From positions 806,001 through 870,000 of the forward strand of contig NZ_VJXX01000001.1 of NCBI RefSeq assembly GCF_009377195.2: a stretch of 64,000 nucleotides of DNA. The letters run 5' to 3'. How positions within the stretch are numbered: position 1 is the stretch's first letter; each line of letters starts with the position of its first letter. Origin of the DNA: Arthrobacter bussei (GTDB taxonomy: Bacteria > Actinomycetota > Actinomycetes > Actinomycetales > Micrococcaceae). The position numbers and the translations under genes are program-made. The notes under the pieces are model-generated. The model was not told the DNA's origin, did not search any database, and saw nothing but the letters and a program-made list of their open reading frames with translations. This document shows, one piece after another, positions 46,374 to 48,280 of the stretch.

Positions 46374-47081
46374 ATGCCGCACATCCTGATGCTCACGAAC
46401 ACGACCGGATCGTCCGTCGACATCCTGCCGGCCCTCGAACTGCTGAACCACAAGGTGCACATCCTCGCGGCCGAGCCCACGGCCCTCCTCGAGACGGAAC
46501 CGTGCGACGTCGTCCTCGTGGACGCGCGGAAGGACCTCGTGGGCGCCCGGTCGCTGACCCAGCTGCTGAAGGCGACGGGCCTGAGTGCCCCCCTGGTCCT
46601 CGTCCTGACGGAGGGCGGTATGGCCGCCGTCGCGGCCAACTGGCTCGCCGACGACGTCGTGCTCGACTCCGCGGGTCCTGCGGAGGTGGAGGCCAGGCTG
46701 CGCCTAGTCATCGCGAGGTCCGCCGCTGCCGGCGAGGAGACCAGCACGGAGATCCACGCCTCCGGGGTGGTCATCGACGAGGCCAGCTACACGGCCCGGG
46801 TCGGCGGCGAGCCGCTGAACCTGACCTACAAGGAGTTCGAGCTCCTGAAGTACCTGGCGCAGCACCCCGGCCGCGTCTTCACCCGTGACCAGCTCCTGCA
46901 CGAGGTCTGGGGCTACGACTACTACGGGGGCACGCGCACCGTCGACGTGCACGTGCGGCGCCTCCGGGCGAAGCTGGGCTCGGACCACGAGCAGCTCATC
47001 GGCACCGTGCGCAACGTCGGGTACCGGTTCACACTCACCCGTCTCCCCGAGGACCGCAGCTCGGTCAACCAGGACGCCTGA
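46374..47081 (+). CDS. glnR: GlnR-type orphan response regulator
   Basis: OmpR-like winged-helix regulator, 235 residues. The receiver lacks the usual acidic pair at its start ([10 protein letters not shown]) and the conserved Lys, but keeps an Asp at residue 50 ([10 protein letters not shown]). The DNA-binding domain is complete: [51 protein letters not shown]. No kinase is adjacent. Position just before mshD matches the mycobacterial glnR-mshD neighbourhood, supporting a nitrogen-control role. TATACT at 46279-46284 is the probable -10; GTGGAGG precedes the ATG. Confidence 0.86.
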
Positions 47082-47119
47082 CCGGAGGCCGCCCGGACAA
47101 GGACCCCCGCGGGAACGAC

Positions 47120-47154
47120 GAAACCCCCTTCCACCACGGGTGGAAGGGGGTTTC
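47120..47154. terminator. Strong hairpin after glnR, usable from both sides
   Basis: A perfect 16-bp stem with a 3-base loop (arms 47120-47135 and 47139-47154). On the plus strand it lies 38 bases after glnR and ends GGGGGTTTC. On the minus strand it lies just after the tRNA-like element and could end that transcript. Confidence 0.85.
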
Positions 47155-47175
47155 GCTGTCCCGGTGACGGGACCG

Positions 47176-47230
47176 TGGTGGAGGACATACGGGTCGAACG
47201 TATCGCGGGCACCCCACTGGTGCATCCCCC
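47176..47230 (-). ncRNA. 55-nt tRNA-like mini RNA with encoded CCA
   Basis: Reading 5' to 3' on the minus strand: acceptor strand GGGGGAT; hairpin GCACC-AGTGG-GGTGC; linker CCGCG; T-arm ATACG, loop TTCGACC, CGTAT; acceptor strand GTCCTCC; then ACCA. The acceptor pairs at all seven positions (two G-U). The T-stem is perfect and the T-loop fits the tRNA consensus. There is one short hairpin where D and anticodon arms should be, so it cannot decode. A promoter-like pair lies just upstream and a strong hairpin downstream. It could be a tRNA-like regulatory RNA, a tmRNA-like relic or a degenerate tRNA. Confidence 0.55.
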
Positions 47231-47244
47231 TCGAGCAGGTCACG

Positions 47245-47273
47245 ACACTACCCCACGCCCGGGCGACCGGCAA
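47245..47273 (-). promoter_or_regulatory. Candidate promoter of the tRNA-like RNA
   Basis: On the minus strand TTGCCG (47268-47273) and TAGTGT (47245-47250) are 17 bases apart. Transcription would start about eight bases before the acceptor stem, as is common for tRNA genes. The same -10 hexamer occurs in the candidate rpoB promoter. Confidence 0.5.
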
Positions 47274-47308: not shown

Positions 47309-48280
47309 ATGACCGCCGTCGAGCACACACCCACCTGGTCCGTCGACAGGATCGCCGGCGCGCCGGCGGTCGCGACCCTCGAGGAGATCCGCCGCCTCGC
47401 CGCGGCAGCCTCCGAGGCCGACGGCAACCCTCCCCTCTCGGAGCAGACCCTCGTCACGCTGCGCGCCGAGGACGCCGGCGAGCGACTGCTCGTCATCACC
47501 GCGCGGTCCGCGGGCCAGCCGGACAGCGATCTGGCCGGAGTCGCGGTGATCACCCGCGGGTCGGGCGACGGCTCCGTCCTCGAGCTCGTCGTCGGGCCGG
47601 ACTGCCGGGGGGAGGGCGCCGGAACGGCGTTGATCGAGGCCGTCCTCGCCGAAGGGATCACCGATCTCCGCGGCTGGTCCCACGGCAACCATTCGGCGGC
47701 CGCCGACCTCGCCGCGCGCTTCGGCTACGCGCCCGTGCGGGAACTCTGGCGCATGCGGCTCACGCGTGCCGCCGTCGAGCAGTCGGTCCCCGCCCTGCGC
47801 CTGCCCGACGGCGTCGTGCTGCGTCCCTTCGTCCGCGGTCGGGACGAGGAGGCCTGGCTCGCCGTCAACGCCGCCGCCTTCGCGCACCATCCGGAACAGG
47901 GGGCGACGACGCGCGCGGACCTCGAGGCACGCCTGGACGAGGACTGGTTCGACGCCGCGGGCTTCCTGCTCGCCGTGCGGTCCGCGGACGACACCCTGCT
48001 CGGCTTCCACTGGACGAAGGTCCACCCGGGCACCGGCGGGCACCCGGCCATGGGCGAGGTCTACGTCGTCGGGGTGGCGCCCGAGGCGCAGGGTACCGGC
48101 CTCGGTAAGGCGCTGACCATCGCGGGGATCGACCACCTGCACGGCAAGGGCCTGCAGGCGATCATGCTCTACGTCGACGCGGACAACACCGCCGCCGTCG
48201 CGCTGTACCGCGCCCTCGGTTTCACCCGGTGGGACGTGGACGTCATGTACGCGCGGACCGCGGCGCAGGCCACCTTGTAA
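47309..48280 (+). CDS. mshD: Mycothiol synthase
   Basis: Acetylates the cysteine amine of Cys-GlcN-Ins with acetyl-CoA, the last step of mycothiol synthesis. 323 residues made of two GNAT domains. The C-terminal half has VYVVGVAPEAQGTGLGKALT, HLHGKGLQAIMLYVDADN and AVALYRALGF, diagnostic of MshD. TAGGCT ends six bases before the ATG and there is no ribosome site, so the mRNA is probably leaderless. Next to glnR as in mycobacteria. Confidence 0.94.
   Translation: MTAVEHTPTWSVDRIAGAPAVATLEEIRRLAAAASEADGNPPLSEQTLVTLRAEDAGERLLVITARSAGQPDSDLAGVAVITRGSGDGSVLELVVGPDCRGEGAGTALIEAVLAEGITDLRGWSHGNHSAAADLAARFGYAPVRELWRMRLTRAAVEQSVPALRLPDGVVLRPFVRGRDEEAWLAVNAAAFAHHPEQGATTRADLEARLDEDWFDAAGFLLAVRSADDTLLGFHWTKVHPGTGGHPAMGEVYVVGVAPEAQGTGLGKALTIAGIDHLHGKGLQAIMLYVDADNTAAVALYRALGFTRWDVDVMYARTAAQATL

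Follow-up and report, generated by a model that had tools for sequence, protein, structure and literature searches.

The tRNA-like domain of tmRNA carries the alanine identity pair G3:U70 together with a T-arm and has no anticodon, and fragments of alanyl-tRNA synthetase (AlaRS) of about 461 residues charge minihelices that bear G3:U70. The Schimmel-type alanine minihelix and the 461-residue AlaRS fragment are both reportedly laboratory constructs. PesT of Corynebacterium glutamicum is taken here to be a putative esterase. According to a 2023 review, Staphylococcus possesses non-proteinogenic tRNA-Gly species that are peptidoglycan bridge donors kept from translation, and the way in which MprF diverts aminoacyl-tRNA is an open question (PMC9976931). 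In C. glutamicum, alaDAGS encodes an Ala-diacylglycerol (Ala-DAG) synthase of the LPG_synthase_C family, and the available part of the source on AlaDAGS/PesT mentions neither a dedicated RNA nor an AlaRS paralog (PMC10580965). Mycobacterial LysX is an MprF fused to LysRS, i.e., a lipid aminoacyl-transferase supplied by its own synthetase.

The 55-nt RNA gene described here shares traits with these systems. Like the tRNA-like domain of tmRNA, it has G3:U70 and a T-arm and lacks an anticodon; unlike tmRNA, it is only 55 nt long, too short for a tag reading frame and pseudoknots, and neither ARAGORN nor Rfam gives a tmRNA match for it. Like the Schimmel-type constructs, it is an acceptor/T-arm RNA with G3:U70, paired in some lineages with an AlaRS core of about 460–470 aa that has no further domains; unlike them, RNA and enzyme are encoded by adjacent natural genes, and a D-like hairpin is added to the RNA. 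As with the Staphylococcus tRNA-Gly species, the RNA is proposed to be reserved from translation and its amino acid to go to the envelope, but the former are tRNAs whose EF-Tu elements are altered, whereas the 55-nt RNA lacks an anticodon arm, bears alanine identity elements, and in some lineages adjoins a truncated synthetase-like gene. The combination of an MprF-type transferase with an esterase recalls AlaDAGS/PesT (PMC10580965), a likeness by type and not by sequence comparison. LysX is comparable in the supply of a lipid aminoacyl-transferase by its own synthetase and differs in its amino acid (lysine) and fused synthetase, with no special RNA mentioned in the accessible sources. Titles and abstract openings, from a collection that lacks bioRxiv and most subscription papers, contained no description of such an RNA; it is possible that one has been described elsewhere.

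Architecture of the Locus

The window, i.e., the whole 64,000-nt stretch of Arthrobacter bussei DNA that was analyzed, contains the gene on its minus strand at exactly the coordinates given in the preliminary description (Table 1). The acceptor stem, single hairpin, T-arm with consensus loop, and encoded CCA attributed to it there are all found. Read from its 5′ end, the gene runs through the 5′ side of the acceptor, the D-arm-like hairpin, a 5-nt linker (CCGCG), the T-arm, the 3′ side of the acceptor, and an A followed by CCA. The linker stands in place of an anticodon arm, the absence of which had been recognized from the outset, while the acceptor stem, the T-arm, and the CCA or CCA-addition site of a decoding tRNA are present. 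Two of the seven acceptor pairs, G3:U70 and U7:G66, are wobbles.

ARAGORN calls no tRNA or tmRNA at this locus, its sole call in the window being a tRNA-Trp elsewhere, and the Rfam 15 comparison proposed earlier yields no tRNA match up to E 10, no tmRNA match, and nothing at gathering score. With no call from the former and no match over threshold in the latter, the gene is one that standard annotation would overlook. The predicted fold is the expected one, with an energy no better than the composition would give (z 0.05, with 97 of 200 shuffles as good), so that the fold alone is no evidence for the RNA. The genome holds a single copy.

The TTGCCG/TAGTGT pair with its 17-base spacing and the downstream hairpin are present as initially claimed, and like sequences recur across loci. 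Among the matches listed from named genomes, promoter-like pairs occur at 90 of 116 loci and stems of 9 bp or longer follow the RNA at 95 of 117, against 2.9 and 15.9, respectively, expected from mononucleotide shuffles. The RNA in the window overlaps neither mshD nor glnR. A weak match to the sodF sRNA (25.7 bits, gathering score 46) at window positions 47105-47155 covers the terminator hairpin.

Table 1. Features of the RNA gene and its surroundings, in window coordinates
Feature	Position	Strand	Remarks
Anticodon-less tRNA-like RNA gene, 55 nt	47176..47230	minus	5′ end 47230, CCA end 47176
Acceptor stem, 5′ side, GGGGGAT	47224..47230	minus	G3 at 47228
D-arm-like hairpin, GCACC-AGTGG-GGTGC	47209..47223	minus	helix with most variation and covariation
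T-arm, ATACG-TTCGACC-CGTAT	47187..47203	minus	pairing kept in distant relatives
Acceptor stem, 3′ side, GTCCTCC	47180..47186	minus	pairs G3 with U70, U7 with G66
Discriminator A73 and encoded CCA	47176..47179	minus	
Promoter-like TTGCCG (47268-47273), 17 nt, TAGTGT (47245-47250)	47245..47273	minus	upstream of RNA
Downstream hairpin, probable terminator of RNA	47116..47156	minus	possibly shared with convergent glnR
mshD (mycothiol synthase), divergent neighbor	47309..48280	plus	TIGR03448, 347 bits, cut-off 163
glnR-like regulator, convergent neighbor	46374..47081	plus	PF21695

Conservation and Covariation

The RNA is a real, conserved, and structured tRNA-like gene without an anticodon. It is matched in 38 of 38 genomes of the genus, the best match in each running from the first nucleotide to position 53 or beyond. 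Across 30 genus loci, the RNA itself averages 0.971 in pairwise ungapped identity, against 0.528 for the 55 nt upstream, which contain the −10 region, and 0.335 for the 55 nt downstream, in a comparison anchored on the RNA with ungapped flanks, which favors the RNA and lowers the flank values.

The pairing was assessed in three alignments, in all of which the percentage paired and the covariation score exceed all 500 shuffles. In a set of 30 distinct sequences, 99.8% of cells are paired and all five measures exceed all 500 shuffles, with the weak locus L066 supplying the acceptor and T-stem changes of this set. In a set of 34 sequences without L066, changes on both sides of a pair are confined to the D-like hairpin, and two of the five measures are not above the shuffles (reached by 261 and 295 of 500). 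In a set of 29 distinct sequences that includes a distant type, such changes occur at three T-stem and three hairpin pairs, acceptor pairs 2 to 6 are invariant, and two measures are reached by 6 and 22 of 500 shuffles; the pair counts of this set come from a model-guided alignment that leans towards structure, MAFFT having misplaced the D-like hairpin of the distant type. The T-stems of the distant relatives are TCAGG/CCTGA or CCAGG/CCTGG, with pairing kept. The covariance-model search and pairing check thus uphold the original claim of a tRNA-like mini RNA gene, conserved with compensatory changes, and the pairing that might have been lost in relatives is kept there, with the D-like and T stems covarying. 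Three distant copies (L236, L244, and L245) have the T-loop TGCGA, not TTCGA, and a D-like loop without GG, which look as if the elbow contact had been lost on both sides together.

Alanine Identity of the Acceptor

A 2023 review names G3:U70 as the main identity element of tRNA-Ala (PMC9976931). In the RNA, this pair is found in 29 of 29 distinct aligned sequences, while other stems covary, and U70 in 119 of 119 pattern-found copies among the matches listed; the pattern applied to the named genomes fixes the T-arm and the first C of CCA and permits C70. All aligned sequences have A73 as discriminator. Of the 119 copies among the matches listed, 50 encode CCA, and its first C is also present in the model-found copies listed. 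Pair 7:66 is U:G, with C:G in one distant copy, and a dropped weak match (L066) has C3:G70. G3:U70 with A73 gives the acceptor its alanine identity, a feature that the preliminary description overlooked and one that points to alanylation rather than sensing.

Distribution and Gene Neighborhoods

The first covariance model, R1, was built from seven sequences and matches 98 of 295 Micrococcaceae genomes, or 96 once two weak ones are dropped, namely G059 (32.9 bits; locus L066) and G049 (27.6 bits). In a wider R1 search, G049 and 11 genomes outside the family (23.5–32.2 bits) were also set aside. R1 suggested that the RNA is confined to the Micrococcaceae, which proved wrong, as a pattern scan, the R2 model, and a scan of paralog loci found others.

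All 32 strong Micrococcaceae loci tested, which came from the 96 R1-positive genomes and from further members of the genus, share one arrangement: the RNA and mshD diverge, with 65 to about 350 nt between them. This synteny is absent from L066, the single weak locus examined. A position beside mshD is the Micrococcaceae synteny. In several members of the family, glnR is displaced or was not found in the stretch and the RNA is retained. No local partner gene recurs across 12 gapped or rearranged loci, bar a GntR-like regulator that lies between the RNA and glnR in two Sinomonas loci (L062, L072), and no alanine-transfer gene adjoins the RNA in the Micrococcaceae loci looked at, apart from Arthrobacter cryoconiti. 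Arthrobacter sp. Br18 (L174) has two RNAs about 750 nt apart with glnR-like pieces repeated, which reflects either a local tandem duplication or faulty assembly.

Named genomes yielded at least 117 stretches with the RNA, of 8 kb each. Among the matches listed, 117 loci comprise 103 with mshD and/or glnR, 12 with lipid-side genes, and 2 with neither. The 12 lipid-side loci among the matches listed (L108, L130, L134, L146, L147, L160, L183, L191, L194, L204, L210, and L221) belong to Williamsia, Gordonia, a Rhodococcus MAG, a contig labeled Kitasatospora, and A. cryoconiti. A membrane esterase (PF00756) is present in 11 of these 12, an LPG_synthase_C protein (PF09924) in 9, and a truncated AlaRS paralog (PF01411 only) in 6, some of the clusters running past the ends of their 8-kb stretches. 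Two Williamsia loci run from the RNA through the esterase to the transferase, with the AlaRS paralog following on the opposite strand; in L130, a DUF2254 gene precedes the paralog. In A. cryoconiti, the RNA lies 374 nt before the transferase start and the esterase comes next, all on one strand, with no mshD beside the RNA in the 10.5 kb read.

The R2 model gives 6 matches in 394 genomes of the class, 3 of them outside the Micrococcaceae. Two of the latter have replaced T-stems (TCAGG/CCTGA), and both adjoin an AlaRS paralog, which was no part of the query. In the family of genome G875, the RNA is found in 8 of 109 genomes, or 7 after the weak match in G1031 (28.7 bits) is dropped; six of the 7 belong to one Williamsia-like genus and hold one or two copies each. 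In the Mycobacteriales and in Microbacteriaceae-like genomes, the RNA adjoins the AlaRS paralog and/or the esterase and lipid aminoacyl-transferase. Linkage of the RNA to the truncated AlaRS, the lipid aminoacyl-transferase, and the esterase thus recurs.

Several further observations concern individual loci. Two RNA copies are present in Williamsia soli (L108, L205), Gordonia desulfuricans (L160), and three Williamsia-like genomes (L264-L266, L271-L273). Neither the second W. soli copy (L205) nor the Williamsia limnetica copy (L185) has alanine-transfer genes in its 8-kb stretch. A membrane-like protein adjoins the Gordonia/Rhodococcus clusters (L160:2719-3945, L146, L239), the L160 copy having no Pfam match, and may be another part of the system. 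Arthrobacter-type synteny occurs in records labeled Vibrio cholerae 35D, an Acidobacteria MAG, and Sporosarcina (L120, L166, L190), and the Kitasatospora arboriphila contig (L134) resembles Williamsia muralis, with a GlmS-like protein that is 99% identical. These four are probably mislabeled or contaminated assemblies.

A Truncated AlaRS Paralog

With a profile of 7 paralogs, 7 of the 394 class genomes match at E 1e-95 or below, and all 7 lie outside the Micrococcaceae. The RNA lies about 90–125 nt from the paralog in five of these seven genomes, including two (G501 and G440) in which it was found by scanning the paralog loci and missed by the genome-wide R2 search. By R2 genome-wide alone, the RNA occurs in 3 of 7 paralog-bearing genomes versus 3 of 387 others (Fisher 7e-5, in a test that ignores kinship). 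No RNA was found near the paralog in G361 (L247) or G954 (L250) within the 13–14 kb scanned; it may lie elsewhere in these genomes or be too diverged. The divergent gene next to the paralog of G954 resembles, by eye, an LPG_synthase protein.

The translated paralogs are 459–473 aa long, with one (L160) extending to the end of its stretch. Four of four scanned match only PF01411, over the first 429-433 of its 552 positions, with no other Pfam domain, and lack the editing and C-terminal domains of canonical AlaRS. Two score 380 and 348 bits against TIGR00344 (NCBIfam), under the alaS cut-off of 457, and the best solved matches of the two that were compared are AlaRS cores of 435 and 465 residues. 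The motif residues of RHTTFFEMLGN, ExGN, and VDxGGGLxRIAA are invariant in 7/7 paralogs, and the Glu of GLER is replaced by Ala in 2/7. In Escherichia coli AlaRS, the residues contacting G3:U70 are presumably N303 and D400. The position aligned to N303 is Asn in four paralogs and has lost it in three, and that aligned to D400 is Asp in five and Glu in two, the changes falling in some Gordonia/Rhodococcus copies. The genome of the window (G000) has one AlaRS by paralog query, a canonical one in an 898-aa open frame, and no paralog at cut-off. Plasmid AlaRS matches were not used, all being below 60% identity and most among the matches listed being annotated as alaS/alanine-tRNA ligase.

As an alternative, the paralog could be no synthetase but an alanyl-transferase like AcmF, with the RNA as its donor and the ordinary AlaRS doing the charging. 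Ascamycin biosynthesis involves AcmF, a transferase that resembles a truncated AlaRS, has an alpha/beta-hydrolase encoded nearby, and is reported to be without most ATP-binding residues (PMC12945691). An esterase is a neighbor here too, the tRNA-contact residues are altered in some paralogs, and the Micrococcaceae keep the RNA without the paralog. However, the three motifs above are invariant in all seven paralogs, despite the GLER change in two, and many clusters have a separate LPG_synthase_C transferase; an AcmF-like role is unlikely.

Envelope Aminoacyl-Transferases

The genome of the window has one LPG_synthase_C protein of about 895 aa, encoded on another contig. Among solved structures, it matches an alanyl-PG synthase first (1.6e-20), with lysyl-PG synthases at 1.9e-20, scores so nearly equal that sequence leaves the amino acid of this transferase unsettled. 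C. glutamicum also matches PF09924.

In the draw of 295 family genomes, taken as the same set for RNA and transferase because size and handles agree, the transferase occurs in 74 of 96 RNA-bearing genomes versus 54 of 199 without an RNA match (odds ratio 9, ignoring kinship); transferase without an RNA match thus accounts for 54 of the 295. Outside the genus of the window, 66 of 74 RNA-bearing family genomes have the transferase. Within it, the transferase is found in 8 of 22 genomes of the family draw and PF09924 in 9 of 29 tested, versus the RNA in 38 of 38. The lipid transferase had been expected to be an obligate partner of the RNA, an expectation that failed in this genus, where 20 of 29 genomes are without LPG_synthase_C; another user must therefore exist there.

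FemAB-type proteins (PF02388) occur in all 15 genus genomes tested, each of which has several matches, but are not discriminating: of 19 genomes from genera in which the RNA was not matched, 18 have them too. Elsewhere, PF02388 is present in G934 and G954, three Williamsia-like genomes gave one weak partial match, and none was found in G560, G501, G440, G361, or G875. The presence of FemAB fits, and does not prove, a peptidoglycan role in the genus of the window.

The retention of the RNA in the 20 genus genomes that lack the lipid transferase family would also suit an aminoacyl carrier for some other product, such as a peptide, a small metabolite, or a protein terminus. Against this stands the repeated linkage to LPG_synthase_C and the esterase in the Mycobacteriales and A. 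cryoconiti, and such a product is an improbable destination.

Proposed Function

A regulatory sRNA or sensor would, charged or not, titrate AlaRS, RNase P, or a CCA enzyme or act on glnR/mshD. Such a function would suit the 103 of 117 named-genome loci, among the matches listed, in which mshD and/or glnR is beside the RNA, and the Micrococcaceae loci looked at, which, bar A. cryoconiti, have no adjoining alanine-transfer gene. However, in other orders the RNA is kept among wholly different neighbors, which are alanine-transfer enzymes; it overlaps neither mshD nor glnR in the window; and its invariant features are those that aminoacylation needs. The regulatory role linked to glnR and mshD that the preliminary description entertained is unsupported, since the neighbors change wholly in other orders and glnR is displaced while the RNA stays, and there is little likelihood of regulation or sensing in general. 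It is extremely improbable that the gene is a degenerate 3′ half of a tRNA or tmRNA from an integrative element, as also contemplated there, or a recombination site: its T-arm and CCA do resemble the tRNA 3′ ends generally known to serve as attachment sites, but both acceptor sides are conserved, the D-like and T stems covary, the position divergent from mshD is constant in all 32 strong Micrococcaceae loci tested, the genome of the window has a single copy, and searches of phages and plasmids turned up nothing significant (2 phage records with a best E of 0.6, no plasmid).

The RNA is instead likely to be a dedicated alanyl carrier, charged by AlaRS or its paralog and donating alanine to the envelope. 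It would be a tRNA-Ala of which the acceptor/T half survives together with a D-like hairpin while the anticodon is gone, and the alanine that it carries probably goes to the cell envelope and not to the ribosome. The RNA would have a promoter of its own and mature as tRNAs do, with CCA added where the gene does not encode it. Because of the identity pair and the gene linkage, it is expected to be charged with alanine via G3:U70 and A73, by the truncated paralog where present and by the ordinary AlaRS in the organism of the window. Since the RNA is unable to decode, its alanine would be kept out of translation and used by envelope aminoacyl-transferases. In the Mycobacteriales-type clusters and A. 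cryoconiti, gene linkage suggests as user the neighboring LPG_synthase_C protein of the MprF/AlaDAGS type; its product would be an alanylated lipid, for example Ala-diacylglycerol, on which the esterase would act next. In the genus of the window, the likeliest other user may be a FemAB-type peptidoglycan-bridge transferase, a tentative assignment.

If this is true, the question of how MprF obtains aminoacyl-tRNA in the face of translation would be directly answered for one bacterial group by an alanyl carrier that has no anticodon and is encoded next to a truncated AlaRS. A private carrier would solve the competition with EF-Tu. The laboratory minihelix experiments that underlie ideas about how tRNA arose would also gain a natural counterpart. 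On a slight balance of plausibility, the Actinobacteria may possess a natural aminoacyl-minihelix system, in which a decoding-less tRNA, served in some lineages by a half-size AlaRS, would form a private alanine channel to lipids and perhaps to peptidoglycan.
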